Virus record (IMG/VR): IMGVR_UViG_3300010885_051264
Span: 1 to 22,824 of that record
Reading direction: 5' to 3' (one strand)
DNA length: 22,824 nucleotides
Origin: a virus
Part shown: in pieces, positions 7,901 through 22,712 of the stretch
Position numbering within the stretch: the stretch's first letter is position 1
How the letters are laid out: each line of letters opens with the position of its first letter
Made by a program: the position numbers and the translations under genes
Notes under the pieces: generated by a model
Databases searched by the model: none
Told to the model about the DNA's origin: nothing
The model's input: the letters and a program-made list of their open reading frames with translations, nothing else

Positions 7901-9804
7901 TTCCACTTGAGAATTTAAATAGTATTTTAACGAAGCTGCATCAATCTCAACCATCTAAGCCTTTGTCAACTTATGGGCCTTTTGAAGGAAGCTATGGATT
8001 CCCTCCTGAGCAGTCATCATTTTTTAATTCTTCTATTATAGGTGGTGGCAATAATCAACCTGTTATTCCAGTAAAACCTCAATCTCTAATAGATGCAGAA
8101 ATAGCTTTACAAAAAACTCAAGAGAATATTCAACTTGAAAAAAATAAAAAGCTAGAAGAGATTAATAGAATTTACGGAAATGGCGACAAAGAACTAGCAG
8201 ATCAGATGCTCTTGGAAATGCAAATAGCAGATGAGAGAGCAAAAGTAACTGAGCGTTTAAATAAAACAAAAGAAGAGACTAAGAGGCTCTATGCTTCAGC
8301 TTATGGTGATACATTCTTCAAAGAAGAAAAGGCCGCTAGAATGAATGCTCAGATAGAGGATAATGCTAGACTTGGAAGAGTTGATATAGGAGGTATTACA
8401 GAAAAGAATACCACTTACAACAGAGCAGACTTCGCAAAAGATACTGGTCAACTAATTGATACATTTCAAACTGATTTTAAGTCTGGTATTGGCAGCGCAT
8501 TTGGCGAAGCTATTAAAGGCACTAAAACCCTTAAGGATGCATTTAGAGACATGTTCCAAGGCATCTTAAATAGAATGCTTGATAAGTCTTTAGAGATGGG
8601 CGTTGATGCTTTGTTTGCTTTTGGTAAGGCTTATGCTACTGGCAGGAAAGATGGAGGCCCAATTAAAGGCTACAATTCTGGAGGCATGGTCACTGGCGGC
8701 TCTGGGATGAAAGATGATGTACCTGCTATGATGAGTGGCGGCGAGTATGTCATTAAGAAATCTTCTGTTAATAAATATGGATCTGATTATTTAAGGAACC
8801 TAAATGGTGGAATTATTCCAAGATATGCAACTGGAGGTTTCTCTGTTGACCCATTACAAAATGAATTCTTATATGATAATCCTGATCGCCCAACTTCTGG
8901 AGAGTTTGCTGTTGATTCTAGATTATCAGCAATGGCTCTAACTGATGAAAATAATCCTCAAAATAAATTAAGACAAGATCGTTATGAAAAACTTGATCAG
9001 TACTTACAAGACCGAGCGCAATATGAGAGAGACAAGAAACAGAGCCTTAAAAACTATAAAAATCAAGTAAATAGCACTTTCTATTCAGGATTAACTGCTG
9101 CTGCTGTCCAAATAGGCGCTGCTGGACTTACAATGGGAGCAGAGAGTTTAAGGGGTAGCGCTTCTACTTCTGCGGGAAGAGGTTTAGAACCGGGAGGCAA
9201 TTTAAGTCAATCGCAATTAAATGAACAATATGCAAAAAATCTTAGAGCAGGAGGAGGTTATATTGCCAAATTTGCTGGCGGCGGCTCTACAGGCCAAGAC
9301 AATATTCCTGCTTTGTTAATGGGCGGCGAATACGTCATGAATAAAAAAGCCGTCGATATGTACGGCAAAGACTTCATGGGACGATTAAACTCTGGGTCTC
9401 TTCCTAAGTACGCTAGTGGAGGAATGGTTGGTACAAGTTCCTCTGGTCAAAGTACTCCTCAAGGTAGCGTAGAAGAATTAGTTTCTGCTCTCAATACTTT
9501 AAATGAAAACCTTTCAAAAGATGCGGGAATAACTCAAGCTGAGTCTGGTAAGACTTCAACCTCTGGAGCTACTCAAGAATCTGGAATGTCAGTAGTAAAT
9601 AACATTTCAATTAACATGACTCAAGGCGGAGAAACGACTTCGCAAGCTAATTCTGCTACTACTCAAAAAGGCGGCACTAATAGCGAAAATAATCAGAACA
9701 ACATTCAAAACAATGCTAAACTCGCTGAACTGCTTAAAGGTAAAGTCGTTGAAGTATTGATTGAGCAAAAGAGGCCCGGAGGATTACTTTACTCCAGTAG
9801 ATAA
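1954..9804 (+). CDS. Tail tape measure protein, TP901/lambda H type, with an internal domain cassette
   Basis: The product spans the tail lumen, sets tail length and is expelled at infection. It has 2616 residues, about three times lambda gpH (853). Residues about 80-350 match the TP901-type minor tail domain (ALVSSTIEVEKSLTDINIVL, then TARGGAVIGNALKTIFTRIE). Hydrophobic glycine/alanine segments lie near 415-446 and 1147-1210. Residues 545-1004 hold G-Y/F-V/I-P-N-F motifs bounding extra domains, including a PD-(D/E)XK-like stretch. A long helical, coiled-coil-rich rod follows (about 1220-2100), with a lambda-type C-terminal segment (LKDAFRDMFQGILNRMLDKS, about 2193-2212). Then come two copies of a Gly-rich module with the core GGEYV (2234-2296 and 2432-2491). 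The C-terminus is Asn/Gln/Thr-rich. The ATG is preceded by AAGGA (1946-1950) at a short spacing of three bases. The gene ends 21 bases inside the convergent minus-strand gene. Confidence 0.95.
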   Translation: MATSAGNIPISATFGSAQLEKDVLAALNRIQSKSSLTLNTKNFSQPLGKITGQANEFQKSLEASNARVIAFGASAGVIYNVQKAFSALVSSTIEVEKSLTDINIVLNTSSSGIKQFGDQLFNVAKQTGSSFKDVAAAATEFSRQGLGLEETLRRTRDALVLTRLSGLDVVSSTEALTSAVNSFTKEALTTTEVVNKLAAVDARFAVSSRDLSEAIQRVGSSASEAGVSFDELLGIVTSVQQTTARGGAVIGNALKTIFTRIERPQVINDLRDFGVTVTDLSGNALPAIKVLENLSQSFQNLSPVVKSQVAELVGGVYQINILKASLADLSKENSVFAGATNASSRAVDEAIVKNKALNESLSALLSETTANATQFAAKVGSVSVAPGIRKVLGFINDQLSSVNDKDSESVGAKIGTGIISGITNFITGPGVAIGIIGLGKLFVTFSKFAKDAGSSFLGLNTISQQQGVLQEGISAILTKQPTLMQQMTLSATARLNVEKEVTKNLLDQSALLQGMDKSSLVLAKSLMQQGIGADTKGRVTKGKAGGYIPMQDRVAEVSSAAKGGYVAGNVVNAPASVGGVMNTAETVKYVPGFSQPFILPPAGSKAASSLASRSMNQTGVNPYMAKGYVPNFATSLQEWFSTKRNEGQLKSVSLNPDGTLSGFNNASLNSASTAGVPIEEIRRASKNPTWLPKQAALEREVGRQVAQLPAYMAKAEMLTLESPNQSGQIIERGRGVGNVPIAFKVVNLSKEALQRNKTDLRSKADNYANELLNDFANDLPGGQKSTPELRTKYLSAVQNPAAQFAGKIFEAAINLSRDYTREGKGGGDFDVRGGANINKVRELFPGFTSNLGDYKLKSDDDSQASFVKKILSEFPGNIKIFEDEARAKASSVDVTAEAAKLKASGEKVTNIVKRIAPGGKKAFGFIPNFNPIQEAIGREMSAGYSSSQVKLGQNSQLKTSFNPNGLGVYNTTEGSLGSGISLAKKAGINPQTKGMAEGFIPNFADEFDISMVTISLIAFGSQLKSLAGGFKEINAQTQALVKNKQIEISQSANSVKTLKKEARSKFNLSNADNDLNVTGRLRTSSGRFANAAQVADLEDIKSKIRGQRETARSAAEQARIGSAGYLNPLSLRSGGKMNNLIRSSGTGAGLAAAGALNIAEQFVPESDKKTKAAFSGAADVAQYAGLGAAFGPVGAAAGALVGLGIAAKKIVDSKAEQAIFDISANLDRVKESSSKFSGASQTYATSLESLQNALNDPKTQPQALLKFQTSITDSLASIPDEFRSKILAAGTDIGKVADAIARVNKEMSDAQQSLERQLAITNLVKDKTGIIAGSNLKKADSDQLNRLFTQSIDPQKILSEFKGGAGEFGSFISNLKGQSIKTDKILEYGANPNFVGSSAPKFVERTNVDQLGLKQIRSQLESKGIFGPELAAKFEEVSKNISVENVKSLFDAIDKFGKGVFSSKEAADNLLAVQKQNVEIAKKNADILKDLTQRYENLNLSLSSQIEAEKNRSSTLRELNKIQAEGSVQLASARTKGALSLASPFMTEAGKTAAESSLALTDLQNKQNSEVRGALDKGLSSFTDIITKKAEDIRSKALPAVTDLSKSPEDITKELNVFNKNIQGISPLIASSLKELSAGGNIEVVKNKLIQGISATGLFKKPEAELIAGELQNTFEGVLNELTKITEQGKFDLAIQKVNSDYQRRSVALSEKLSLAGGAAALGSTGQVGVSDLFDKLTELTSTLGQNVRVGNPTETGSGLFKLLDTISNQYGIRGGGVGAELAPLQNASITARAEQLKKENERARALTNISLIGQTGSGIQSGGALEKAFDNFNENAMSVAIDQVTSQLKLDNIGTYFDLLAQESKYANELAKTQTEILAKQAPDITKAFYDISKAEVGSKITELNRSLSEALKQLVDTQNTAELNKEIRNLLPIASVSEREKALAEIRSQMGNLNGFSSPIAGNDTGAYSTDKEKLASKLNIPLENLNSILTKLHQSQPSKPLSTYGPFEGSYGFPPEQSSFFNSSIIGGGNNQPVIPVKPQSLIDAEIALQKTQENIQLEKNKKLEEINRIYGNGDKELADQMLLEMQIADERAKVTERLNKTKEETKRLYASAYGDTFFKEEKAARMNAQIEDNARLGRVDIGGITEKNTTYNRADFAKDTGQLIDTFQTDFKSGIGSAFGEAIKGTKTLKDAFRDMFQGILNRMLDKSLEMGVDALFAFGKAYATGRKDGGPIKGYNSGGMVTGGSGMKDDVPAMMSGGEYVIKKSSVNKYGSDYLRNLNGGIIPRYATGGFSVDPLQNEFLYDNPDRPTSGEFAVDSRLSAMALTDENNPQNKLRQDRYEKLDQYLQDRAQYERDKKQSLKNYKNQVNSTFYSGLTAAAVQIGAAGLTMGAESLRGSASTSAGRGLEPGGNLSQSQLNEQYAKNLRAGGGYIAKFAGGGSTGQDNIPALLMGGEYVMNKKAVDMYGKDFMGRLNSGSLPKYASGGMVGTSSSGQSTPQGSVEELVSALNTLNENLSKDAGITQAESGKTSTSGATQESGMSVVNNISINMTQGGETTSQANSATTQKGGTNSENNQNNIQNNAKLAELLKGKVVEVLIEQKRPGGLLYSSR
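3589..3603 (+). repeat. GYIPM variant of the tape measure boundary motif (residues 546-550)
   Basis: This codes for G-G-Y-I-P-M, a degenerate relative of the G-Y/F-V/I-P-N-F motifs further on. It stands at the start of a stretch with further glycine-tyrosine turns (GGYVAG at 563-568, KYVPGF near 588-593). I read it as the left edge of the non-rod region of the tape measure protein. Confidence 0.4.
3832..3852 (+). repeat. GYVPNFA boundary motif, tape measure residues 627-633
   Basis: First clear copy of a short motif that recurs at 4723-4740 and 4945-4965. All copies are Gly, aromatic, aliphatic, Pro-Asn-Phe, and two are followed by Ala. It marks the left boundary of the segment containing the nuclease-like pattern. 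The motif could be a linker, a turn that seals separate domains, or a processing site. The sequence does not decide between these. Confidence 0.65.
4321..4590 (+). other. PD-(D/E)XK nuclease-like core inside the tape measure protein
   Basis: This sub-region of the tape measure gene codes for about residues 790-880. It shows a helix with GKIFEAA (E810), a beta-like GGDFDV (D828 and D830), a spacer containing ELFPGF, then GDYKLK (D853-Y-K855), followed by a helix. An acidic residue in the first helix, an aspartate strand and a D-x-K strand are in the order found in restriction-endonuclease-fold enzymes. The segment is flanked by GYVPNFA and GFIPNF motifs and looks inserted relative to ordinary tape measure rods. 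The assignment comes from motif order read by eye, not from a profile search, so it is a hypothesis. Confidence 0.45.
4723..4740 (+). repeat. GFIPNF boundary motif, tape measure residues 924-929
   Basis: Second copy of the motif, 297 residues after the first and 74 before the third. It closes the segment with the nuclease-like pattern and opens a short segment beginning P-I-Q-E-A-I-G-R-E-M-S-A-G. Confidence 0.65.
4945..4965 (+). repeat. GFIPNFA boundary motif, tape measure residues 998-1004
   Basis: Third copy of the motif. It closes the short segment (930-997), which contains REMSAG and a following FNPNGLGVYN stretch. After it the protein returns to helical, tape-measure-like sequence. Confidence 0.65.
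8653..8841 (+). repeat. Tape measure C-terminal Gly-rich module, copy A (residues 2234-2296)
   Basis: This codes for a module with GGMVTGGSG, D-D-V-P-A-M-M-S-GGEYVIKK, NKYG and LNGGIIPRYATGG. It aligns closely with copy B at 9247-9429. Similar Gly-rich motifs lie near the C-terminus of many lambda-type tape measure proteins, the end thought to face the tail tip or be released first. Confidence 0.8.
9247..9429 (+). repeat. Tape measure C-terminal Gly-rich module, copy B (residues 2432-2491)
   Basis: This codes for GGGSTGQDNIPALLMGGEYV, then N-K-K-A-V-D-M-Y-G and LNSGSLPKYASGGMV. It shares the GGEYV core, the tyrosine-glycine turn and the leucine-asparagine-glycine ending with copy A, and is separated from it by about 135 residues. 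The copies have diverged, so the duplication is old. Confidence 0.8.
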
Positions 9805-10611
9805 TTCTTTAATCTTAGAGTCTATAGTCAGTATAGCCTGATTATAGATTTGCTCTATATTATTATCTTTGGCTAATGGCAAGTTTAGAAAAGGAGTATT
9901 CTCTACTTTAAGAATAAAAGGATGGCTAGAGTATTCTTTGTCCGTAGATTTATTTAAAGTGATGCGATATCGTTTTATATAAATTTCACCAGTAAGGAAG
10001 CTGTCTTTAATCTTTTCATTTAGTTCTACGAAAGTAAAGCCTTGATCTCGCTTTACATTTAATACAGAGAAGAACTTTAAAGATTTTTTGTCGTGTTTGC
10101 CTAGGATTAGGCTTACTTTTGCTCCTTTGCCAGAGCCGCCATCTAGGTCTGCTTGCTCAAAGTTTTGAGTGAATTTGCCATTGTTAATTAAATGGAGTTC
10201 AGTAATACCTCCGTTACTATCAACAGATTTGACTTGGAGAATAGCTCTTTCATTTCTATCGTTGCTAGAATCAAAATAAGTATTTTTATTAATGTTTACA
10301 TATTCATTTACTTTGTATCCAGATCCAGCCTCAGTAATTTCATTGACTAATGCAGTATAATAAGTAATAAAATAACAATCAATAGTATCTCCATCTAAAA
10401 CTAAATCTTTTATAATGTTATCAAATTTAATTATTGAATTTGATTCTACTGTAAAACCTTTATTATAATTAATTACATTGGCGCGAACAACGGAGAATTT
10501 TTCCGGGTTCCCCATTATTTCAATCTGTTCTCCTGAATTAATTAAAGACCAATTTGCTAAATTATTAGAGTACGCAAATTCGTCACCGAAAGAAAACAAT
10601 ACGTCTGTCAT
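9784..10611 (-). CDS. Probable tail tip or fibre accessory protein, last gene of the tip operon
   Basis: A 275-residue protein with mostly beta-strand character and no signal peptide or membrane segment. It contains a GSGY turn (96-99) followed by VNEYVNINKN, a GGITELHLINNGK strand (134-146) and a GGSGKGAKVSLILG stretch (158-171). These resemble the GSGY-type beta repeats of phage baseplate and fibre proteins, also seen in the neighbouring 232-residue product. Its C-terminus is helical and charged. No family was recognised. It starts two bases after the stop of the upstream gene without a clear Shine-Dalgarno, so translation is probably coupled, and its 3' end overlaps the tape measure gene by 21 bases tail to tail. 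Its place after J suggests a part that attaches to, or helps assemble, the tip fibre. Confidence 0.6.
   Translation of the reverse strand: MTDVLFSFGDEFAYSNNLANWSLINSGEQIEIMGNPEKFSVVRANVINYNKGFTVESNSIIKFDNIIKDLVLDGDTIDCYFITYYTALVNEITEAGSGYKVNEYVNINKNTYFDSSNDRNERAILQVKSVDSNGGITELHLINNGKFTQNFEQADLDGGSGKGAKVSLILGKHDKKSLKFFSVLNVKRDQGFTFVELNEKIKDSFLTGEIYIKRYRITLNKSTDKEYSSHPFILKVENTPFLNLPLAKDNNIEQIYNQAILTIDSKIKELSTGVK
9820..9849 (+). terminator. Hairpin just after the tape measure stop, in the convergent overlap
   Basis: GTCTATAGTCAG (9820-9831) can pair with CTGATTATAGAT (9838-9849) across a six-base loop. As plus-strand RNA this gives 12 pairs including two G-U wobbles; as minus-strand RNA those wobbles become A-C mismatches. 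The structure starts 16 bases after the tape measure stop and so favours the plus-strand transcript. It lacks a strong T run (only TTTG follows) and it lies inside the coding end of the minus-strand gene. It may stabilise or end the plus-strand message, but this is uncertain. Confidence 0.35.
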
Positions 10612-10613
10612 GT

Positions 10614-11312
10614 TTATATTATATTACCAATAACAGCTTTTAATACAGGATGTTTTGCGCTTTCTCCTTCATATCCGCTTATTTTAATTGTAGGTTCAGA
10701 TATATAACCGCATCCTAATTTTGCCATAGATAAAGAAAGTAATTCTCCTTTTGATCCTCTAATAGCGTTAGCAGCAGCCATCAATCCGTAATTATGATCA
10801 TTCTCTTCAGGAGGAGAAATAGTAACATGAGGCACGGATTCTGAACAGCCATAACCGGGGTCAATAATTTGTATGTCTACTATATTATAGAAAGCATTAA
10901 ACTTATTAATCTTTTCGCAGTCATGAATGTGTTGCATTTCCGTTCTGCAAGAAAGTTCTCTTAAGAAGTTTTTGTTTCTTTTAATAATCTCTGTCTGTTT
11001 GTTATTGGGAGTTTCAAGAGATATAATAAAATGAGTATCAAGGCTTTGCAATAAAGAGTTTCTTTTATAAGTGAACTCTTTTGTTTTTTTATTAATAAGT
11101 TCTTCTTTTTTCCATATTGAATTGCCATCAGGCAAAAATTTTCTATATTCTAATTCGCTTTGGTTAATATGTCCTTTTAATGGCACAATATAATCGACTA
11201 CTTCATAATCTACTCCTACAAGATGAAGTCTATCTAAATTATCCATTAAATTAAAAGAAGACTGCAAATATTTATAACTACCGTTTATAAAATATATAAT
11301 ATAGTATTTCAT
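10614..11312 (-). CDS. Probable tail tip/fibre-associated protein with GSGY-type repeats
   Basis: A 232-residue protein. Residues about 83-125 (R-N-S-L-L-Q-S-L-D ... N-F-L-R-E-L) loosely resemble the R..LL...D ... YR..LR.L pattern found in proteins that accompany tail fibres. The C-terminal half has two related beta units, DPGYGCSESVPHVTISPP (151-168) and LGCGYISEPTIKISG (199-213), of the G-x-GY-x-x-x-P-x-V/I-x-I type common in phage baseplate and fibre proteins. The ATG directly abuts the TAA of the J-like gene (TAAATG), so it should be co-translated with it. Several cysteines (122, 131, 156, 201) are notable. A structural role at the tip is inferred from composition and location. A fibre chaperone is the main alternative. 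Confidence 0.6.
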   Translation of the reverse strand: MKYYIIYFINGSYKYLQSSFNLMDNLDRLHLVGVDYEVVDYIVPLKGHINQSELEYRKFLPDGNSIWKKEELINKKTKEFTYKRNSLLQSLDTHFIISLETPNNKQTEIIKRNKNFLRELSCRTEMQHIHDCEKINKFNAFYNIVDIQIIDPGYGCSESVPHVTISPPEENDHNYGLMAAANAIRGSKGELLSLSMAKLGCGYISEPTIKISGYEGESAKHPVLKAVIGNII

Positions 11313-14300
11313 TTATGAATAAGTTACGATTATTGATAATTCTAACGCTTGAATATGAAAATTATGGTTAGGCATTTTCCCTAATGCTTTTGCAGCAGAC
11401 AAATGGGCAAAAGCTAGATTTTTCGGATCATTAAAACTCCAAAAAGGATTGTTGTTAAGCACATCTGGACCACCGAGAGCACTGTCTCGATATTGCGCTG
11501 CATAAGTATAATAATTTTTATGAGATAAATTATATAAAGTAATAGTCACAGAATTCTCTTTATCTTTAATTATTTGATTTGAAGATATCTCGCTAGATAT
11601 ATAATCTTCCCCGTTATAACAAAATATCTTTATTTTTTTGTCGGCGGATGGGTATCGAATTTGAATTGTTATTTGCAATTTATCAATTTTATCTAACAAG
11701 GGAATTCCAGCAATATATCCTTGACTTGCGCCTTGAGTTGAAACTGATGGAGCAAAACCTTGAACGTCAGTTGGGTTTAAAAAATTAACGAGAGTTTCTT
11801 TAGGAAGATAATTAAGTGAAAAAGAAACGTCTTGAGCAGAGACGCCTATGACGTCCAAATTACCTTGTGGAGTAACGTTGATTGCATTGAATGGGGAGTT
11901 ATAAAAATCTATATCGTACTTTACTGTGTCTTGAAAAGTCTCTTTAGTTATTCCTGAGTAAATGGTGTTCGTTAATCTATATCCGAGTTGGACCAATGAA
12001 AGGTTTTTACTTGTTGATTCATTTACTTTTTTTCCAAAACCTGTAGTCCCCTCTGGCATATTCAAAAGTCGAGCAATTGAAATATCGAAAAACTCTTCTC
12101 CATAAATAGAGTTGCTAGAGACGCCTTTAAATACTTGAAAACGATTGTTAGCATTTTCACTATAAATCCCTTGCAGCAATTTTGGGGTTACTGTCGTCTG
12201 TTCGTCTGACACTAAAGCTCTTGTAAATAATTTATTGCCGTTTAAAACGTAAGCTCTTTTGTTTGGAGGGATAGTGGGAGGAAAAGATAGGTCCGTAATA
12301 TTTGGTCTATTTTGTAGTGATAAAAGATAATAAGCACTATTTCCATTTGGGTTTGTAGAGAGTACATTGCTGTCTTTTTGCGAAATACTTAAATTACTAT
12401 CTATAGTAGGCTTGTATATTATACTGTTTCTCGATAGCGTGAGATTAGGGAAAGTGGTCTCAGCAATATAACCAGCTTGATTAAACATACTCTCAATCAT
12501 TATTGTTTGGTTAAAAGTAAAGTGTAAATATTTGTCACCAGCATTTTTTAAAACTTCTTCTATGGAAGTGTCTAAATTTGGGTCTACATAGAGTTGAATG
12601 GCCTTTCGGTCGCTTATCTGAGGATAAATTGTGGTAACATTATTAGCTGCGTCAGCGAATTTAGAAGTATAATCCAAAATTCTTCTTGGTTCTGTATCTG
12701 TCCCAAATTTCACCCATTCAGACATTAAAGCATCTACAGCTATTAAATAAATATTGTAGCTAGTTGAGCTAAATGGTCTACCACTGTCATCGACATTTTT
12801 TCTAGATTCAAAATCAATACTCGTATTCTCCACCTGTATAAAATGACAGTCATTAATCTCTTCATTTGAGGAATTTTTAACTCCAATAGGAGAGCCTGTT
12901 TCTTCATCGTATATTATTCCATTACTTCCAAATTTAAATTCTGTATTAGAAGGAACAAGTAGCAAGTAAAATGTGCTAACAAAAGTATCAGCGAAATCTT
13001 GATGGATTCTAATGCTTAAAAAATTCGCCGTTTCTTGGGAAAGTATTGAAAATAAATTATTTTCATTATTTAAAATATTATCTAGAGAAGTCTTTATCGT
13101 AGAGTCTTGATTGTCGTATGTAAGTAATAAAAATCCTTTTTCATTTGTAAAATTCTTTGATGTCGAATATGTTATCCCATCTGCAAGTGAAGTATTAGCT
13201 TTGTCTATAGCGATAGAAAAATTTCTATACTTTACTGCGTTTAAATTACTAGAATAAACGTATTGATTTTCTAGCGTCTTGAGGATGTCATTAGCAAAGA
13301 TGTACTCATTTAAAGGAGTTGAGTTTTGATATTTCTCTAAACTAGTGATAAATTGTTCTTTTGAATCTACTTTTTCTGGAATTGTTCTTGATCTGTAAGA
13401 GTAGGAATCGTCATTAAATTGAACCGGATCTTTAATAAAATTTAAACTAATGTTAACACTTAAAGAATTTATAGTCTTGTTCTTATCTGGAGGGGATACT
13501 AAGGGGAAAAAATCTCCTCTTGTTTTAACTATGAGAGGTGCGCCTCCATCAACGACAGCGTTAGGTGTAATTGCATCTAACCCAACGATTGGAGAATTTG
13601 TAGCGTCATTGCCGCCAATTGGCACCGCTTCTACATATGATGATGAAGATTCGTTATTAATATTAACTCCATATACTCTTATCTTATCAATATTTCCATC
13701 AACAGAAAAGGTAGTATTTACATACGATTCATTAATATTAATTGACGCAAATCTAGATGAAGTGTCTGTATTTGGATTAAAGTCGGTTGCGTATACAGTA
13801 TTAGTGAATATTTTGAATCCTATTGTGCTAGTCTTGATTGATGGATCATAATATATACCTAGAGTAAGAGATTTATTTCCTTTAATAAATGTGACAATTG
13901 AAGGAGGGGAAGCTGGGCTTGCGGGAGCTTTTGGAGGCGTGATATTTAATCCAGATTCTATTTGTGTATATTTTAAGTTGTATACTTGAGAGCCTAATAT
14001 AGTGTAATTAGCGCCTTCAGTAGACTCTTGAATTCTAAAAATTCTATAAAAATCATAATCACTATCTGTAGACCCGTCTAGGTTTCCTGAATTTTCTAAC
14101 GCCCAAGTTATTGATTTGGGAGACATACCTGATGCTCCTGTAAAATACGCTAAACCAGTTACATTCAATCCAGAAGCCATTACTGGAGACAAACCTGTGA
14201 TTCTTATAGAATCATAATATTGACCAGTAATTAAATTACCACTATTAATCATGAAAGAGTTGACTAATGGTTTTCTGTATTCGTTGTAATCAAGACTGCT

Positions 14301-17300
14301 AGTTACTCTACTGTTTCCTTGTGCATCTTTAAAACTAGGATCTATATTGTATTTTGGAGAAAGTATTGTTAGTTTATAGTTTTGACCTCCAGAGAAATTA
14401 AAGTCGAGCTTTCGATCTAAAGTTAATGTCCCGGTGGTGGCAATTACGTCTCCAGAGATATCAATATAATTTAAACGACCGCCTACTGTTTTGTGTTTTT
14501 TATTATAATCATAAATTTTAATTACATCTCCGGGTTTTAAATAAATACATTCTGGGCCAGCCTCAAAAGACGCCGTTTCTGTTTCGTTATATTCTGAAGC
14601 TAATAGCCACCTGCCCAGTCTTTGGGCCTGTCCTCTGCTTGTGCATCCAAATGCTGTCAATTCGGTTTCCTTAAATCCAAATTTTCTAATTGCTTCTATG
14701 TTCTCTACATATTCTACTGCTGGTTTATAAAAATTATTTTTGTCAACATAACGAACATAAACAGCAGAATTCCTGTCCTTTAAAGAAGTGGATTCGTAAT
14801 TAAAATTACCATTTATTACATTAGAATTTGTGAATGAATAAACAGGAGTCTCTTCTGGCATGTCATTTATTGAAAAAATAAATCCATTTGCATAATAGAA
14901 CATGCCTCTAAATATAGAAGCCATATCTGCTAATACTTTAAGAGCGTCTTCTTGAGTTTGGAGATAAAGATTACAGGAAAATCTGGGCTCTACTCCTCCG
15001 AATCCGTCACTGACTAATTCGTCGCAATATTTTCCAATTTGATATAGAGACCATTTATCTACGTCAGTTTCAGCAATCTGATTCCCTGCTCCGTATCTCT
15101 TGTTGGTTAAAAGATCATAAAAGCACCAAGCTGGGTTATCGGTCCATTCTTTATTCTGTTTAAAATTACCATCCCAATAATCATTCGAAGATGCGTAAGT
15201 TGGAACTGCTGAAGGAGTGTATGTAGAAATCTTTCGGGGTAGACTTTCTGAAAATAAAGTTCTTGAATAGGCTTTAGCTAAAATAGCTTTATCAAATTCA
15301 ATTTGATTTACTCTGATAGAGTCAGCAAGCCCTAATATTTTGCCGCCGAATCCAGCGCTTGTTTTATTTGTAAATATTTCTATTGCAGAGTTATTATTAA
15401 TAAAAGAAGCAGGGTTAAAAGGTCCGCTAGATACGCTAGGGGGCATGTCTGGCGACTTAAGATATCCATCATTAGTGAGATAAGCCTTAATTGGAAGTAA
15501 ATTATTAGATATTATGCCCATTTCTTCAGTTCTAGGCCCTAAACTAAGCAGGACATTAGTTTGATTTGAAGACAAAACTACATTTAAATTGTTAAGGGTT
15601 AAGGTGCCATTTATATCTGTTTCGTTGTAATTTTTTAAAGCTTGATTAGTTATTGTAAGCATCACATTTTCTCTTAACGCTTTTACTTCTGTAAAATAGC
15701 TAGAAGGATATACTGACCAATCAGTATAATCTGTTTTTAAATAATATTCTATTCCTACGCAAACAGCTTTATAAGTTGTATAATCTCCTACGTTTATATT
15801 GCATTGGATTTCTTTTTCTAAATCTAAAAGAACATCTATCTCTGCGTTTAATATATCTGGGTAATAATCTACTCCAAGTACTTCTATGGGTTTCTCGCTG
15901 CTATATGCTCCTATAGTATATGCGAAGTATTTTGTACAAAGGGGCGCAAGGTTAGAAATATCTCCTTGGTAAGTAGTGTCTTCTCTAAAGGTGACGCCGT
16001 TGACTAGCAATTGCATTGCCATGTCAGGGCTAGGAGTTATGCCTAATGAAGCAGCTAAGGTCTTAGTAAATTGGTTCTGTTCTTTATCTAAAACATCTGA
16101 CATAAGAATGTCGCGCCCATTGAAATTGGCATTTATCCACCTCTCTTTGACAGCAGTAGACAGGACTACTTCGCTTGCATTCTTCGCATATGAAAGAGTC
16201 GGTTTTACTATTTTTGGCAATATATATAAACTGAATCTTGTGTACTTGTTTTTGAGTATTGTTTTCGAATATTTTGACTGATCTAAAGTTTTATTTATTG
16301 TGTATTTTTTCTGTTCATTTTGAGCGACATTTGGAGTTAAAATTGTAAGAATTAAATTCGTATTATTATCTCCTATAGTAATGGAAAGATTAAATTGTCC
16401 ATCTCTATGTATTAGAGAATAATTTCCGTTTACTAGACTCTGATCTAACTTTAAATAAAAATCACAATAAAAACTACAAAACCCTTGTTTTTGTAAATTA
16501 AATGGCTGTATAGTCGCAGGATTTTTCCAAAATCTTTCAGGTATCAAATCAAATTTATAAGGTCTGTCCTTTGGGTTATCGCCATATACTGGAAGATTAT
16601 AAGGCTTCATCTCTTGTCCAAGAGAGCAAATGGTTTTCAAAGGTATTGTCAAAGAAACATTATTCAAAACCTGAAGAGCTTTTGAATTGTAGCCATCTGG
16701 TGAATTTACAAAAGTAGGATTAGTTACAGCGACATTCCATTTATTATTAAGCCAATTTCTTACTTTAATAGCTTCCTCCTTAGCGAGAGCGCGGTTATAA
16801 ATTAAAATTTCAAAAACTGTACAATCACTTTTATCTGCTGGTACTTTCCCTGTGTTTATAGCTAACCCTTGTGGCGCAGTTGGAACTGTTGATGTTTGAA
16901 CGGAATAAATAGAATTTTGCCAGAATATATTTACATTTTTATCATTTCTAATTACCGCGCCAGCAATATAAGTATTTGAATCATTTGAAGTGTTCCAGTA
17001 ATTTGAAAGATTAAAATTGCCATCGCCCGCGCCCATTGGGCCATTAACCCAAGACCCAAAGAAAAAAGCTTTATTATAATTCTCCCAATTTCCTAATAAC
17101 CAGTTATTTCCATTTCCTTGTAAAATTCTCTTTCTTGTTGCAGCAGTTGACGAAGCGTCCCATTTAGATACTACAAAAATAGTACAGTTGCCGTTTCCGT
17201 CAGCAAAAAATTTAACTCCATCTAAAAAAGTAGCAGTTTGAGTGCTGGCAAAACTTACTCCATAAGAACCATTTGGACTGGTTTCCCCAGCTTTACCATA

Positions 17301-18815
17301 AGTCGGCTTGCTCGTTGATAAAGTGCAAGTCAAATTGCCAGCAACTCTATTAGCCCATGCAGTTACTGGCGTAGTCGCTCCACCATTTGTTGTATTTTCT
17401 GCGGCAAATTGACCAATTAATCCTGCTACAATGGGCGGATTAATATTGCTTGCATTGGTGTAGGTCTGATCTTCTCCTATAAAGTAATCGATTGCTGGCG
17501 TTTTATCAGTTTTAATATAAGAATCATTAACGCTTATTGTGCGAGTTGTCGTTTCTCCGTATGTCTTTGTTAATGGATCATAGTTAGCAGGGACTTTAAC
17601 TTTTAATAATTTTACGTCATAAGATCTCTCTGGTATTTTAGAGAAATAAGCAGCATTAAATCTAGAGGTAATAGTAGCGGAGTTTGTATATCTAAATGAA
17701 GAAGAATAAATCTCAGTAATACTTTCTATTGATACAAAAGACGCTCTTGAGGAAAATGTATCTTCTGGGGTTATTTTTAATATCGAAAGCTCCCATCCTA
17801 ACCAATTTTCATTTGTATTTAATTCTTGGAAGACAGTAGACATGTCAAGCATAATTTGTTTAGAATATCCTTGAGTGACTTTACCTTTAAATGTTATTTC
17901 AATTAAATTAGGGATATTATTGTCAACGCTAATAGATAAATCTTGTCCATCTTTAATAACTTTTGGCACACCTGTAACCATATCAATAGTAGAATTCCTT
18001 GAGTTATAGCCTTCCTTATAAACAGAGTTTATTTTTATTCTTACTTTAAAACTATGATAAAGAACGGACCCAACGCCAGCCTTAGAGCTTCCGTCTGATT
18101 GATTGGCTAGCGACAATTCTCTACCTTCTGTAGAGAGAATAAAATATCCATCTGTTGCATTAGCGCTGGCGACTCCATCTATTGGTTTTCCTGCGGTTAA
18201 ATCTTGATATTTTAATGTCGTATAAAGAGAAGATATTGTAAAATTTAAAAAAAGTTTTTTACATTCTTTATTTAATATACGATAAGATCTTTGATAATCA
18301 GCTATCTGATCAGAAGTGGTACTTAAAAAATTTGGACCTCTTAGTCTTTCTCCTATTGAGCGGATATAAGAAACGTTTTCAAATTCCTCTCCTGTCGCAG
18401 TGCCAATAGGGGTTCCATTTGTGGAGTTTACATTTATTTGTTGAAAATTATATTTATTTTGACTATCCAAAAGTGGAGTTTGATTCCAATAAATAGATCT
18501 TAAATAAACAGATTTTGAATCTTCGCCTAGTACTATAGGGTATTGATTATAAATTACGCTAGTGTATCCTAAGTTACCTACGCTGCCATTATAAACATAC
18601 TGTCCATCTACCAACCCATCAATTGGTCCCTCTGAAAGCAGATCTTTTACTTTCGCAAATTGATAGACATTATAATTAACTCCGCCAACCGAATTTTTTG
18701 CGTAAATGAATCCTTCTGGATCTTCGTAGGCGGCGGTGGGTTGCGCTGCTTGCTGTGTGCTGCTCCCTTTACCTCCAAAACCTTTTACATATTTGAAATC
18801 TTCAAAGTTATTCAT
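11313..18815 (-). CDS. Tail tip attachment (receptor-binding) protein, lambda J family, with large insertion
   Basis: The central fibre and host-specificity protein of lambda-type tails, here 2500 residues against 1132 in lambda J. The N-terminus has the J signature DLLSEGPIDGLVDG (58-71). The conserved path continues to VKVPANYDPLTKTYGE (406-421) and is then broken by about 790 residues. It resumes at YWDGNFK (1213-1219), with EWTDNPAWCFYDLLTNKRYGAG, a CDELVSDGFGGVEPRFSCN stretch and FGCTSRGQAQRLGRW, reaching PGDVIKIYD near 1429. The insertion carries a LamG/concanavalin-like domain (about 462-695). Fibronectin-III-like beta segments follow (from about 1630). The last 800 or so residues are beta-rich and unassigned, and probably meet the receptor. 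AAGGG lies about ten bases before the ATG, and the gene starts three bases after the I-like stop. Confidence 0.95.
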   Translation of the reverse strand: MNNFEDFKYVKGFGGKGSSTQQAAQPTAAYEDPEGFIYAKNSVGGVNYNVYQFAKVKDLLSEGPIDGLVDGQYVYNGSVGNLGYTSVIYNQYPIVLGEDSKSVYLRSIYWNQTPLLDSQNKYNFQQINVNSTNGTPIGTATGEEFENVSYIRSIGERLRGPNFLSTTSDQIADYQRSYRILNKECKKLFLNFTISSLYTTLKYQDLTAGKPIDGVASANATDGYFILSTEGRELSLANQSDGSSKAGVGSVLYHSFKVRIKINSVYKEGYNSRNSTIDMVTGVPKVIKDGQDLSISVDNNIPNLIEITFKGKVTQGYSKQIMLDMSTVFQELNTNENWLGWELSILKITPEDTFSSRASFVSIESITEIYSSSFRYTNSATITSRFNAAYFSKIPERSYDVKLLKVKVPANYDPLTKTYGETTTRTISVNDSYIKTDKTPAIDYFIGEDQTYTNASNINPPIVAGLIGQFAAENTTNGGATTPVTAWANRVAGNLTCTLSTSKPTYGKAGETSPNGSYGVSFASTQTATFLDGVKFFADGNGNCTIFVVSKWDASSTAATRKRILQGNGNNWLLGNWENYNKAFFFGSWVNGPMGAGDGNFNLSNYWNTSNDSNTYIAGAVIRNDKNVNIFWQNSIYSVQTSTVPTAPQGLAINTGKVPADKSDCTVFEILIYNRALAKEEAIKVRNWLNNKWNVAVTNPTFVNSPDGYNSKALQVLNNVSLTIPLKTICSLGQEMKPYNLPVYGDNPKDRPYKFDLIPERFWKNPATIQPFNLQKQGFCSFYCDFYLKLDQSLVNGNYSLIHRDGQFNLSITIGDNNTNLILTILTPNVAQNEQKKYTINKTLDQSKYSKTILKNKYTRFSLYILPKIVKPTLSYAKNASEVVLSTAVKERWINANFNGRDILMSDVLDKEQNQFTKTLAASLGITPSPDMAMQLLVNGVTFREDTTYQGDISNLAPLCTKYFAYTIGAYSSEKPIEVLGVDYYPDILNAEIDVLLDLEKEIQCNINVGDYTTYKAVCVGIEYYLKTDYTDWSVYPSSYFTEVKALRENVMLTITNQALKNYNETDINGTLTLNNLNVVLSSNQTNVLLSLGPRTEEMGIISNNLLPIKAYLTNDGYLKSPDMPPSVSSGPFNPASFINNNSAIEIFTNKTSAGFGGKILGLADSIRVNQIEFDKAILAKAYSRTLFSESLPRKISTYTPSAVPTYASSNDYWDGNFKQNKEWTDNPAWCFYDLLTNKRYGAGNQIAETDVDKWSLYQIGKYCDELVSDGFGGVEPRFSCNLYLQTQEDALKVLADMASIFRGMFYYANGFIFSINDMPEETPVYSFTNSNVINGNFNYESTSLKDRNSAVYVRYVDKNNFYKPAVEYVENIEAIRKFGFKETELTAFGCTSRGQAQRLGRWLLASEYNETETASFEAGPECIYLKPGDVIKIYDYNKKHKTVGGRLNYIDISGDVIATTGTLTLDRKLDFNFSGGQNYKLTILSPKYNIDPSFKDAQGNSRVTSSLDYNEYRKPLVNSFMINSGNLITGQYYDSIRITGLSPVMASGLNVTGLAYFTGASGMSPKSITWALENSGNLDGSTDSDYDFYRIFRIQESTEGANYTILGSQVYNLKYTQIESGLNITPPKAPASPASPPSIVTFIKGNKSLTLGIYYDPSIKTSTIGFKIFTNTVYATDFNPNTDTSSRFASININESYVNTTFSVDGNIDKIRVYGVNINNESSSSYVEAVPIGGNDATNSPIVGLDAITPNAVVDGGAPLIVKTRGDFFPLVSPPDKNKTINSLSVNISLNFIKDPVQFNDDSYSYRSRTIPEKVDSKEQFITSLEKYQNSTPLNEYIFANDILKTLENQYVYSSNLNAVKYRNFSIAIDKANTSLADGITYSTSKNFTNEKGFLLLTYDNQDSTIKTSLDNILNNENNLFSILSQETANFLSIRIHQDFADTFVSTFYLLLVPSNTEFKFGSNGIIYDEETGSPIGVKNSSNEEINDCHFIQVENTSIDFESRKNVDDSGRPFSSTSYNIYLIAVDALMSEWVKFGTDTEPRRILDYTSKFADAANNVTTIYPQISDRKAIQLYVDPNLDTSIEEVLKNAGDKYLHFTFNQTIMIESMFNQAGYIAETTFPNLTLSRNSIIYKPTIDSNLSISQKDSNVLSTNPNGNSAYYLLSLQNRPNITDLSFPPTIPPNKRAYVLNGNKLFTRALVSDEQTTVTPKLLQGIYSENANNRFQVFKGVSSNSIYGEEFFDISIARLLNMPEGTTGFGKKVNESTSKNLSLVQLGYRLTNTIYSGITKETFQDTVKYDIDFYNSPFNAINVTPQGNLDVIGVSAQDVSFSLNYLPKETLVNFLNPTDVQGFAPSVSTQGASQGYIAGIPLLDKIDKLQITIQIRYPSADKKIKIFCYNGEDYISSEISSNQIIKDKENSVTITLYNLSHKNYYTYAAQYRDSALGGPDVLNNNPFWSFNDPKNLAFAHLSAAKALGKMPNHNFHIQALELSIIVTYS
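15180..17555 (-). other. Insertion in the J core with LamG-like lectin domain
   Basis: This sub-region codes for J residues about 421-1212, between the VKVPANYDPLTKTY and YWDGNFK motifs that adjoin in ordinary J proteins. Residues about 462-695 (16731-17432) look like a LamG/concanavalin-A domain: IVAGLIGQFAAENTTNG at the start, NGNCTIFVVSKWD in the middle, and an ending of the form FEILIYNRALAKEEAI followed by L-N-N-K-W. A second lectin-like stretch is possible at about 778-1000 (FCSFYCDFYLKLDQ, NYSLIHRDGQFNLSI) but is weaker. The domain call is by eye. Confidence 0.65.
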
Positions 18816-18818
18816 TTT

Positions 18819-19544
18819 TTATATGCCCTTAATCTTGCTTTTAACATCTGCTGATGTCGATCTGATATCTAGTTCAAAATTCTTTAATGTTATCTCAACA
18901 GTTTGAGATCCTATTTTCATTCTTCCATACCCAACTGGTACAGGTCCACCTTCTCCAAGAATGTTAGAAGGTCCATCAAATAGATAGCTTGGTTTACCTC
19001 CACCTTCTTGAATCTTTCTAAAGTCATCAAATTTTGGAGGAGTCATCATGAGTAAGGTGATGCCAGTTACCGCCAAACCGATACCAGCACTAACTAATGC
19101 AGTAGCTAAGGTAGCGCTTGCAGTAGCTCCCAATCCTATTCCGAAACCAGCAGGAGCGAAAACGCCAGTCGCAATTAATACAACCGCCAACACCAAGGCC
19201 AGCACTCCTTTCGTCGTATTGTTCCCGCCTCCGCCGCCAGCGCCTTTAATAATTGGGACTATGTCTAGAGTGTCTAGTTTTTCATTTATCATTACTAATT
19301 CAGAATTGAAAATAGACTCTGGTTTTTCTAAACAAACCTCCTCGGCTGATATCATTTGTCTTTTATTAACAAGAACCTTATATTCAATACTTTTCTCTGC
19401 TGCGCCAATTAAATATCTTAATAACTTACCCTTAGACAACACTTGGATAGCCCGCAGAGCTTCTTTTATAGAGTTTACTTTTAAAGTCCAATGCTCTCTG
19501 CCTACTTGTTCTCCCATCTCACCGTGTAAAGTTATGTTAGTCAT
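18819..19544 (-). CDS. Tail assembly protein, lambda I family
   Basis: In lambda, gpI is needed to build the tail tip together with J, L and K, although it is not found in the mature tail. This 241-residue protein has the family layout. A ubiquitin-like N-terminal part is seen at 1-90 (MTNITLHGEMGEQVG, then VNSIKEALRAIQVLSKG). A Gly-rich break follows (GAGGGGGNN, 101-109), then a hydrophobic hairpin of two apparent membrane-like segments (about 112-170), and a C-terminal part with GPVPVGYGRMKIGSQTVE. It overlaps the end of the upstream K-like gene by eight bases and has only a weak Shine-Dalgarno, so translation is probably coupled. The 201-codon frame opposite (19048-19653) is a shadow. Confidence 0.88.
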   Translation of the reverse strand: MTNITLHGEMGEQVGREHWTLKVNSIKEALRAIQVLSKGKLLRYLIGAAEKSIEYKVLVNKRQMISAEEVCLEKPESIFNSELVMINEKLDTLDIVPIIKGAGGGGGNNTTKGVLALVLAVVLIATGVFAPAGFGIGLGATASATLATALVSAGIGLAVTGITLLMMTPPKFDDFRKIQEGGGKPSYLFDGPSNILGEGGPVPVGYGRMKIGSQTVEITLKNFELDIRSTSADVKSKIKGI

Positions 19545-20283
19545 AAAGGTTGTTTCTCATTATATAAATTACCCATTTTTTATAACCATTAGAAAGTCTT
19601 TCAGTAGTAGAGATTCCATCTCCCGGATGATGCAAAATAATATCTTTACCTAGATAAACAGCGCAATGGATAGGAAAATTAAATTTTTCTGTTCTCATTA
19701 TTAAGACATCGTTTTTCTTCAAGTCAGAAACTTGTCTAAATCCGTTATATTCAAAGTATTTTTTCAAATAATCATCTTTATCTTTTAAACATTCTGCTTC
19801 ATCAATTAATCTTTTGTTCGCCATTTCATTATACTCTTCTTCAGAAACGGTATTCTTAAGAACTTCTAATTCTGGGCAAAGATGAATGTTTAAATCATGG
19901 CAGTAATAATCTTTTACTAGCCACAAACAATCAGCAAACCCCAAAAGGAAAGGTCTTCCTGTGTACTGAATTCTATAACTATTTGGACTATAAATATGAA
20001 AAGATCCGCTTTGCTTATTGTAAACAATACAGGTTAAACCAAGCCTTTCCGAAACAATCTTGTCTGCTTCTGAAATAGCATCAAAATTAATATGAGAATG
20101 ATAATAAGCAGCGATATTAGATTGCCCGTTAAGATTCATCATGAATTCAGTGGCAGAATCAATTAGGTTCTCTTTTTTTTGCGTTTCTATTCCATCGTCT
20201 GTATTCAATAAAAAGCCGCACACTTCATTATCAGAAGTATTAGCGTGTTCAATGATTTGATTTTTTATTTCTTCTGTTAACAT
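19537..20283 (-). CDS. Tail tip peptidase, lambda K family (JAMM + NlpC/P60), copy 1
   Basis: Lambda gpK-type proteins join a JAB1/MPN (Mov34) metallopeptidase-like domain to an NlpC/P60 cysteine peptidase. They act at the tail tip in assembly and probably in cutting peptidoglycan. In this 248-residue protein the JAMM residues are present: E20 before C-G, H62-S-H64, S71 and D74. The NlpC/P60 part has the catalytic Cys in ADCLWLV (C119), the His in PIHCAVYLG (H206) and a following His in ILHHPG (H218 or H219). Both active sites look intact. A strong AAGGAG lies nine bases before the ATG, and the start overlaps the stop of copy 2 by seven bases. It is adjacent to a second, diverged protein of the same layout, which is unusual because lambda has one K. 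Confidence 0.9.
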   Translation of the reverse strand: MLTEEIKNQIIEHANTSDNEVCGFLLNTDDGIETQKKENLIDSATEFMMNLNGQSNIAAYYHSHINFDAISEADKIVSERLGLTCIVYNKQSGSFHIYSPNSYRIQYTGRPFLLGFADCLWLVKDYYCHDLNIHLCPELEVLKNTVSEEEYNEMANKRLIDEAECLKDKDDYLKKYFEYNGFRQVSDLKKNDVLIMRTEKFNFPIHCAVYLGKDIILHHPGDGISTTERLSNGYKKWVIYIMRNNLYD

Positions 20284-21035
20284 AATTGCTTACTCCTTGC
20301 GAAACAATAGATCCTTCTTTTCTCTGCATCTGTTAGCCTTTCAATGATTGATTTTTTATTTCTTGGCTGGTGTAAAATATAATTTTGTCCAAGGTAAATG
20401 CCAAAGTGAGAAGGATAGTTCTCTAAATATTTAAACACTATAATGTCATGCTTCTTAGCGTTATCTATACTTTCAACCTTAATGAAATTCTCTTTTTCAA
20501 AAAACTTGTCAAAACTTTGTGATTCACAAAACTCTGCTAGTTTATCCTTTACAAACTCTTCGTAATTCTTGTCCCAATCTGTTCCTCTTTCATAGTGGAA
20601 TATTTTAATGCCAAATTCTTCATTATAATAGTTTTCTACTATTGATAAGCAGTCAGATAGTCCAATTACAAAATCTTTATTAACGTATTTATTATAGTAA
20701 TTTTCTGGAGAATACTCTTCAAAAGAATCTCTTTTTAGTATATAAACTATGTTTTTTAAATTAAGTTTGTGACTTATCTGCTTGTCTAACTCTGAAAAAG
20801 AATTATCTTGTATACAATGAGAGTGGTAAATGCCAACAATTTTACCATTCATCGCTGCCTTCAAGTAGTCTAGCTGACATACAACAAATTCATTTTCCTT
20901 ATCTTGAGCAATATTCCTACAAGGAAAAGCTTCTAGCTCATTTTTGCTATTTAAAAGCAAAAGGCCACAGCACTCTTCAGGGTTTTCCTTTAATGCGTGT
21001 TCTCTTATCTTTATTTTTATCTTCTCAGAAACCAT
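20277..21035 (-). CDS. Tail tip peptidase, lambda K family (JAMM + NlpC/P60), copy 2
   Basis: A 252-residue paralogue of the next gene, with the same two domains in the same order. JAMM residues are E21 (PEECCGLLL), H71-S-H73, S81 and D84, with the His-to-Ser gap one residue longer than in copy 1. NlpC/P60 residues are C129 (GLSDCLSIV), H210 (YPSHFGIYLG) and H222 (ILHQP). Both sites look complete, so neither copy is an obvious inactive remnant. The two are clearly related but well diverged, so the duplication is not recent. Its start shares one base with the stop of the L-like gene (TAATG), and a GAGGGG sits seven bases upstream. Possible roles are two enzymes with different wall targets, or one enzyme and one assembly factor. 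Confidence 0.88.
   Translation of the reverse strand: MVSEKIKIKIREHALKENPEECCGLLLLNSKNELEAFPCRNIAQDKENEFVVCQLDYLKAAMNGKIVGIYHSHCIQDNSFSELDKQISHKLNLKNIVYILKRDSFEEYSPENYYNKYVNKDFVIGLSDCLSIVENYYNEEFGIKIFHYERGTDWDKNYEEFVKDKLAEFCESQSFDKFFEKENFIKVESIDNAKKHDIIVFKYLENYPSHFGIYLGQNYILHQPRNKKSIIERLTDAEKRRIYCFARSKQLC
20284..20304 (-). promoter_or_regulatory. Strong ribosome binding site of K-like copy 1
   Basis: Read on the minus strand, AAGGAG stands nine bases before the ATG at 20283 and inside the coding end of copy 2. It allows copy 1 to be translated independently as well as by coupling. Confidence 0.7.
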
Positions 21036-22153
21036 TAAAATGCCCCTCTATTATAATTAGATACTCCATAGAATCCTCCAAAAGGTAAAGGATTTTCTCC
21101 AAATCTAATTTTACATCCTTTAACGCTCTTAGAGCATTGATCTGCTAGCCAATATTGTCCATTTGGGGGAGGTGTGTTAATTGGGACCTCTGACTTTGCA
21201 ACAAAATAAAAGTTTATACCTTTTTTCGCTATAAAAACTACATTTCCTTTTTCATACTTAGTTGATGAACCCCATTTGCTAGGATTATTTGAGAAGGGAA
21301 CTCCATCAAATAAAGGCATGTCTTTAATTACTTGGTCATCTTCAGTGCCGCAAACTGGTGCTGATACTCCACTTGAATCGCTCTTATTTGGTATTGCGGT
21401 GGCCGTTCCATGTACATCTTCGTTTAACCTGTCTTTGTATTCGTATAAACATCCTTCTCCTCTATATTGCCAAGGACAAATATAACTTAAAACTCTCCTT
21501 TTAGGCAACCTTACTCTGTCTAAGTCTATTGCGCTTGAAAGCTCAAACTGAATGCTATTTTTATTTTCTGAAGACTTTCTGTCAAAGTAATAAACATCTC
21601 TGGGAAATTCGCAATTAGGATCAGGGTCAAACCCGTCTGGTATCACTAATCTGTCTGGAGACAATAGAGAAGTGCCATCGCTTTGATAAAAGTTGCTCCT
21701 ATCAAGAAATTTAGCAAATGTCCTAATTCTTGTAAATTTTGCACCAATTAAATCTCCAAAATCAATAGTCCCCCTAAAAAGACTAAACACATCGAGCATA
21801 TCATCAGAAAAGCTAATTTGAACTTTAGGTTTAGGAAATACGCCTCTTGCGGCTATCTCAAACCCTTCAGTGGAAAGAGGAGCGGGTAAATAAGGGTTTT
21901 TTTTCCAATAAATAATATTCCTTCCAAGCTTTAAATTATTATGGAGGCGGATTGTTTTGTAATTAAAACCTTCAGTATTCCCTCCCGGTAATGTTATTTG
22001 AAAGTTTTTAAGATTAACAATGAATTGGCTATTGCTATCAAATCCAATTTCAGTTAAATCTACTTCAAATAAAGAAATAATTGAAGAAGGCTCAAGAGAG
22101 AAAAACTCTGTGTTTACTTTTAAGGATGCATTTTTTTCTTGTTGGGTAGCCAT
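21035..22153 (-). CDS. Minor tail protein, lambda L family (Fe-S cluster tip protein) with CBM-like insert
   Basis: Lambda gpL is a tail tip hub protein that binds an iron-sulfur cluster through four cysteines. In this 372-residue homologue the ligands are recognisable: C226 and C235 (ICPWQYRGEGC), then C340 and C347 (DQCSKSVKGC), with the same 9- and 7-residue spacing as the lambda pairs as I recall them (173/182 and 205/212). The family ending FGGFYG is present (359-363). About 80 extra residues lie between the two pairs, holding an extra Cys (C268) and a module resembling carbohydrate-binding family 5/12 (294-335). The N-terminal 220 residues are beta-rich, as expected. The gene starts four bases after the M-like stop with no clear Shine-Dalgarno, so it is probably coupled to it. 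Confidence 0.93.
   Translation of the reverse strand: MATQQEKNASLKVNTEFFSLEPSSIISLFEVDLTEIGFDSNSQFIVNLKNFQITLPGGNTEGFNYKTIRLHNNLKLGRNIIYWKKNPYLPAPLSTEGFEIAARGVFPKPKVQISFSDDMLDVFSLFRGTIDFGDLIGAKFTRIRTFAKFLDRSNFYQSDGTSLLSPDRLVIPDGFDPDPNCEFPRDVYYFDRKSSENKNSIQFELSSAIDLDRVRLPKRRVLSYICPWQYRGEGCLYEYKDRLNEDVHGTATAIPNKSDSSGVSAPVCGTEDDQVIKDMPLFDGVPFSNNPSKWGSSTKYEKGNVVFIAKKGINFYFVAKSEVPINTPPPNGQYWLADQCSKSVKGCKIRFGENPLPFGGFYGVSNYNRGAF
21036..21050 (-). promoter_or_regulatory. Strong ribosome binding site of K-like copy 2
   Basis: Read on the minus strand, GAGGGG stands seven bases before the ATG at 21035 and within the last codons of the L-like gene. It supports this start rather than a later ATG. Confidence 0.7.
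21149..21274 (-). other. CBM5/12-like module inside the L-like protein (residues 294-335)
   Basis: The pattern is W294, then T-K-Y-E-K-G-N-V-V, an FYFVAK strand, a Pro-rich turn (TPPP) and Y-W at 334-335. This is the W...Y.(K)G..V....YY.A....P...YW layout of chitin-binding family 5/12 modules. It aligns well with the N-terminal module of the M-like protein. Confidence 0.6.
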
Positions 22154-22157
22154 AATA

Positions 22158-22712
22158 TTATGCTGGTACTTCTTCGAAGGTAGCTTTTACAGAGAAATTA
22201 TTGAAGAATGGATTAGATGATCCCCATTTTCTGCAAACAAATAATTTAGCATCTGTAGCCGCTACAGTATAGGGAGCAGATGGGTAATATATAAAAGCTG
22301 CCTTCGCTGACCTTGCACTAAGAAAATGAAGGATAGCAGTACATTCGTCTAATGTTAACCCGTCAAAATTCAATTCAAAATTGAGCAGATTAAAGTTAAT
22401 TTGATCACTTACTCTTTTTTCGTAACCATCTCCGTATTTTATTACATCTACTTTGGGCTCAAAATTCGCTTGAGTTTGATATGAAGGCTTCCAAATAAAT
22501 AAAGGATAGTCTTTCTTTACTACTGGATGCTGGAAAAAACCACCCCAATAAGTATCCGAATTAGATATTACATTAGAATAGATGGGAGGATTGGCTGCGG
22601 GAACCGCCGCTTTAGCGTAATAATATCGATTATCTGTGTATACGATAATATCATGCTTATTATATATGGCAGAACTGCTCCATGAACTAATGTTAAAAAT
22701 CGAACTAGACAT
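22158..22712 (-). CDS. Minor tail protein, lambda M family, with N-terminal CBM5/12-like module
   Basis: The C-terminal part (about 80-184) of this 184-residue protein matches the Phage_min_tail family of lambda gpM, a tail tip protein. It has NFEPKVDVIKYGDGYEKRVS (83-102), a LNFDGLTLDECTAILHFLSAR stretch (114-134), LFVCRKWG (157-164) and the ending VKATFEEV. Residues 1-60 are an addition not expected in M: a W...Y..HDIIV...YYYAK...NPP...YW module like that in the neighbouring L-like protein. An AAAGG lies eight bases before the ATG, with another AAAGG closer in. The start overlaps the stop of an upstream frame by eight bases. The order M, L, K, K, I, J follows lambda M-L-K-I-J. Confidence 0.9.
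   Translation of the reverse strand: MSSSIFNISSWSSSAIYNKHDIIVYTDNRYYYAKAAVPAANPPIYSNVISNSDTYWGGFFQHPVVKKDYPLFIWKPSYQTQANFEPKVDVIKYGDGYEKRVSDQINFNLLNFELNFDGLTLDECTAILHFLSARSAKAAFIYYPSAPYTVAATDAKLFVCRKWGSSNPFFNNFSVKATFEEVPA
22545..22682 (-). other. CBM5/12-like module at the N-terminus of the M-like protein (residues 11-56)
   Basis: It is built from W11, Y17-N-K-H-D-I-I-V, Y30-Y31-Y32-A-K, N41-P-P and Y55-W56, with the same order and spacing as the module inside the L-like protein. Carbohydrate binding is inferred from the aromatic pattern only. Confidence 0.6.

Follow-up and report, generated by a model that had tools for sequence, protein, structure and literature searches.

Two neighbouring genes for tail-tip proteins in a viral locus from IMG/VR (record IMGVR_UViG_3300010885_051264) each carry a small aromatic-rich segment. 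The whole stretch of DNA analysed, hereafter the window, comprises 22,824 nucleotides. The locus raises the questions of whether the two segments are related, what they might do at the tip of a lambda-type tail and how they came to be there.

Tip proteins M and L and their shared module

Both proteins are encoded on the minus strand. M (P0001, 184 aa, 22158-22712) matched Pfam Phage_min_tail (PF05939) over residues 72-182 (E 9e-16) and PHROG 14 (E 8e-19), and its top Foldseek match was lambda gpM (8iyk_E). The matched part is a lambda gpM-like beta-sandwich core (22167-22499, minus strand); residues 70-184 were superposed on 8iyk_E with a VIA-align Z of 6.9. L (P0002, 372 aa, 21035-22153) matched Phage_tail_L (PF05100, E 5e-34) and PHROG 18 (E 6e-51), with lambda gpL (8iyk_L) as top Foldseek match (E 2e-4). 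Pfam and Foldseek agree, and confirm that M is a gpM-like distal tail (Dit) protein and L a gpL-like hub protein.

The core domains and the gene order are those of lambda. The tip operon (9784-22712, minus strand) comprises M-L-K-K-I-J and two more genes. It converges with the tape measure gene (1954-9804) on the opposite, plus strand, which we take to be a difference from lambda. The two tandem gpK-like genes (20277-21035 and 19537-20283, minus strand) each encode JAB and NlpC/P60 domains; the JAMM-like motif is HSHx7SxxD in the first and, one residue shorter, HSHx6SxxD in the second, and the Cys/His residues of both NlpC domains seem intact by eye. The J-like protein (11313-18815, minus strand, 2500 aa) has a Phage-tail_3 domain at residues 1287-1437 and a long C-terminal half that received no assignment.

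Lambda gpM begins at the start of the M core, and the M module (residues 11-56, 22545-22682, minus strand) therefore extends the protein at its N terminus. In L the module (residues 294-335, 21149-21274, minus strand) is internal. Alignment with lambda gpL and 13 relatives identified four cysteines, invariant in the family, as counterparts of the lambda Fe-S ligands (all minus strand): Cys226 (21476-21478; lambda Cys173), Cys235 (21449-21451; Cys182), Cys340 (21134-21136; Cys205), and Cys347 (21113-21115; Cys212). L thus combines the Phage_tail_L domain with the four conserved cysteines of the gpL Fe-S hub. The module is part of an insertion (residues 236-339, 21137-21448, minus strand) placed exactly after the second cysteine and before the third: 104 residues separate Cys235 from Cys340, compared with 22 between Cys182 and Cys205 in lambda. 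Inspection of lambda gpM (109 aa) and gpL (232 aa; NC_001416) revealed no such module in either, as the original prediction had stated.

The resemblance claimed there between M residues 11-56 and L residues 294-335 was borne out at exactly these positions. When whole M was compared with whole L by BLASTP, the module pair was the sole significant segment (38% identity over 40 aa, E 8e-5). In a cruder and weaker test, whole-protein shuffles, the pair score was reached in 28 of 3000 (p ~0.01), so that the pair by itself is suggestive rather than overwhelming. Once relatives are included through family profiles, the match appears firm: hhalign of the M-module and L-module profiles gave E 3e-7 (probability 93%), and the HMM of either family recovered the modules of the other (best E 4e-8 for the M-module HMM in L proteins and 7e-6 for the reverse). 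Chance likeness between two aromatic-rich stretches would fit the roughly 1% of shuffles that reach the pair score, but can be practically dismissed given the profile-profile E-value and the match of the separately made M and L structure predictions to CBM5/12 domains (below). The M and L segments are homologous small modules.

Predicted fold and occurrence of the modules

AlphaFold2, run on a shallow alignment, produced a weak model of M and a poor model of L, in each of which the module was the most confident stretch. For the M module the pLDDT was ~75-83 at residues 11-40 and 62-65 at residues 41-60; for L residues 281-340, the module part, it was 52-76. As the mean over the whole L model was only 38, the module part alone was taken into structure comparison. 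The M module matched 8yfp_B (VIA-align Z 5.1, rmsd 1.3 Å over 44 residues) and 4mb3 (Z 5.2, rmsd 2.0 Å over 45), and superposed on the CBM5/12 domains of a Moritella chitinase and of Vibrio chitin-oligosaccharide deacetylases with rmsd values of 1.3-2.3 Å over 44-47 residues. The L module matched 9jen_A (Z 4.5, rmsd 1.2 Å over 43 residues) as well as 4tx8, ChiC (1wvv/2d49), ChiB, ChiA1 (1ed7), deacetylases and others, in most cases at about 1.2-2.4 Å over 41-46 residues; domains of phage baseplate and fibre proteins were among these matches. The Z values for both modules, 3 to 5.5, are middling, as expected at ~45 residues, and CBM5/12 entries recurred in both lists. Both predicted modules have the small three-stranded sheet of the CBM5/12 fold, in agreement with the original assignment.

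Against Pfam CBM_5_12 (PF02839; gathering score 26.2 bits) the window M module gave a match below the cut-off (12.1 bits, E 0.21) and the window L module gave none; a match of any strength was obtained for 8 of 13 M members (best E 0.0023) and 2 of 16 L members (best E 0.015). Identity to the CBM5 and CBM12 domains of ChiA1, ChiC, ChiB, the Moritella chitinase and the Vibrio deacetylase was 13-24%, whereas the fold is shared over 41-47 residues, mostly at 1.2-2.4 Å. A PDB sequence search with the module profiles returned weak matches only (best E 0.1); those to paramyxovirus G proteins span half the module and were judged to be chance. In a PHROG scan the modules matched tail-fibre and head-decoration families, but only weakly. 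Five M modules (alignment A3) had weak matches to PHROG 20658 (head decoration; best E 0.00083), which hints at a similar module on the heads of other phages.

It has been shown for CjCBM5 that a tyrosine and the final tryptophan form the core of the domain, and that the exposed Y282-W283 pair, together with Y296, binds the ligand (PMC8449059). The core pair (Y265 and W299 of CjCBM5) is kept as Y17 and W56 in M and as Y300 and W335 in L; in the module alignments (A3 and A4) the final Trp is invariant, and a few distant M modules have Phe in place of Y17. The binding platform is different. By motif alignment, the equivalents of Y282, W283, and Y296 are A35, A36, and D53 in M and S321, E322, and G332 in L. 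Among the distinct modules fitting the pattern, to which the scoring was applied, all three positions were non-aromatic in 59 of 59 L and 38 of 38 M modules, the third position being approximate, as it was placed by its spacing from the final Trp. Nor is there an aromatic equivalent of the CBM12 tryptophan W687 (ChiA1). The exposed aromatic platform of CBM5/12 was found in neither M nor L. By these alignments, the modules have kept the core residues of the fold and have lost the aromatic platform by which chitin or cellulose is bound.

Relatives were fetched from IMG/VR, one set of loci by core L patterns alone (TFAKFLD, SIQFELSS). With these core-pattern loci included, the modules were present in all 67 distinct complete L ORFs and in 60 of 60 M ORFs, all environmental, at identities to the window L down to ~33%. 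Among the cultured-phage proteins read, none of 7 L and none of 4 M proteins had the module. A tblastn search of 50,697 phage records with the L module found no gpL; the matches listed all fell in proteins of Pseudomonas phages annotated as tail fibre, J or tail component. Homologues of L occurred in 1241 records of the phage collection, none spanning 80% of the window L. Scanning genomes for hosts with query A2 gave nothing, and query A5 detected one MAG contig (Proteobacteria bin), which encodes a relative in which the L module is present and the M module is matched in part; no host was assigned. The other ORFs of the fetched loci contained no convincing further modules, and Pfam searches of the window J and tape measure proteins revealed none. 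Several variants were noted. Three distant M modules (L135, L137, L141) have an expanded hairpin, their first two strands being separated by a long insertion. In two loci (L231 and L234) a second M-like ORF with a module (start 783, minus strand) lies close to the regular M and L, on the opposite strand. Three L-like ORFs (L221 1770, L222 626, L229 2363; plus strand) are 648 aa long, ~250 aa above the others, and carry the module at ~545-594.

Role of the modules in the tip

In the lambda tip gpM forms a hexamer and gpL a trimer, and the Fe-S domain of gpL lies at the outer surface (PMC10721106). From these copy numbers and this position we infer that the M and L modules would be exposed on the tip surface, with up to nine per tip. 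The most likely role, to which we assign a probability of about 45%, is that of exterior docking modules fixed in a lambda-type tip. The M module, an N-terminal add-on to the distal ring protein (gpM, six copies in lambda), and the L module, within a loop of the Fe-S domain in the hub protein (gpL, three copies), would stabilise M on L, or secure the J fibre or side fibres to the tip. Domains of the same fold appear to act in an analogous way, between anchor and stem, in the short tail fibres of other phages.

Docking is supported by an architecture that is invariant across the clade and by the loss of the platform aromatics while the core Tyr and final Trp remain. The best structural match of the L module was 8kec_b, residues 133-195. 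In phage A-1(L), the short tail fibre is fixed to the baseplate wedges through a joint domain (residues 111-215; PMC10966104); taking 8kec chain b as this short fibre, as its chain length implies, the match falls inside the joint domain. Baseplate fibre chains of phages Milano and 7-7-1 also matched the L module. These small globular domains are alike in fold by structure comparison, but are part of contractile-tail baseplate fibres. In Pseudomonas phage MR13, the flanks of a related module in the J fibre resemble, by eye, a coiled-coil fibre shaft. Two points count against docking. The CBM5/12 fold is best known for glycan binding. Sequence also varies a little more in the modules than elsewhere in the same proteins (identity 0.81 vs 0.89 in M and 0.75 vs 0.83 in L), which pure docking need not predict.

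The same variability would suit a non-canonical glycan contact, a reading that we regard as a serious contender. The modules would then ring the tip and bind polysaccharide weakly, in the manner of the evolved Dits of phages that infect Gram-positive bacteria; they would do so through another surface (e.g., the PP...YW edge, with Y55 of M and Y334 of L) and with a polysaccharide other than crystalline chitin. L modules and the J-fibre modules of Pseudomonas phages both have a conserved aromatic residue immediately preceding the last Trp, which could provide such a site. The presence of the CBM5/12 fold in both modules and the outward-facing Fe-S domain of lambda gpL (PMC10721106) are consistent with this reading, for which CBM-carrying Dit and Tal proteins provide precedent (PMC8540738; see also PMC10688798 and PMC6669499). 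Weighing against it are the non-aromatic platform positions in every scored module, the Pfam CBM_5_12 result (below the cut-off for M, no match for the window L), and the retention of the modules throughout the clade, with no loss or exchange, which sets them apart from most receptor-adapted domains. Docking is slightly favoured over glycan contact. Of the original interpretation, the CBM5/12-like fold of both modules, their absence from lambda and the location of the L module in a domain reported at the outer surface of the lambda tip (PMC10721106) are supported, and chitin binding is not.

Since the L module is inserted between two of the gpL Fe-S ligands, its engagement, whether by a glycan or by a fibre, could conceivably strain or expose the cluster and thereby trigger opening of the tip. 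The Fe-S domain would in that case serve as a contact sensor, an idea we consider a long shot.

Origin of the modules

Homology of the two modules within one operon had been read as the spread of one module from gene to gene. Copying from M to L, or the reverse, would account for the similarity of the pair, and a group uniting M and L modules was not rejected (AU p 0.16). We nevertheless regard it as improbable. Both modules occur in relatives of only 33-43% identity, so any copying would predate the clade. In the module tree, which was built on 47 columns with few forks resolved, the L modules came out as a single clade (99/99), to which the J-fibre modules from Pseudomonas phages attached (97/98), and the M modules fell elsewhere. 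The L-module HMM scored 20-26 bits on J modules, and a similar L-module HMM reached at most ~18 bits on M modules. Given the grouping of L with J and the higher J scores, copying between M and L cannot be claimed; the spread within the operon is compatible with the AU test and at odds with the L-J grouping. A recent intra-operon duplication found no support in the tree.

The nearest sequence relatives found for the L module are these J-fibre modules, from Pseudomonas phages MR13, phiAH14a, SYP, and D14H and the F2-pyocin fibre (25vf). They share with it the motif Y..G..V...VP..xPPN..YW, but sit in the J fibre and not in gpL or gpM.

Proposed chitin binding and significance of the twin modules

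The modules had further been proposed to be useful for first contact with chitin or other glycans; as canonical chitin-binding CBM5/12 domains they would contact chitin particles or chitin-clad surfaces. The non-phage structural matches, mostly chitinase or chitin-deacetylase domains, speak for this proposal. It is undermined by the lack, in all scored modules, of equivalents of CjCBM5 Y282, W283, and Y296 and of ChiA1 W687. Because the platform residues are missing, chitin binding is very doubtful.

CBM-decorated tips have been described mainly from phages of Gram-positive bacteria. The twin modules are a true, conserved feature, and represent an "evolved Dit"-like variation on such decorated siphophage tips. 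As in the evolved Dits of phages of lactic acid and other Gram-positive bacteria, the siphophage tip has a CBM-fold module joined to its distal tail ring protein: M has both a Dit core (PF05939, lambda gpM match) and a CBM-fold module. In contrast to evolved Dits, the module here is N-terminal to a lambda gpM-type Dit without a galectin domain and is of a different CBM fold, and a second copy is found in the hub protein; the arrangement is known here from sequence and predicted fold.

A large uncultivated lambda-type clade carries one small fold at two fixed tip positions, in one case inside the Fe-S loop of gpL. The presence of a CBM5/12 fold in phage tails need not imply chitin binding. The function of the gpL cluster is an open question (PMC10721106), and a domain located between its ligands offers a handle on it. 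If the contact-sensor reading were true, the gpL Fe-S cluster would gain a role.
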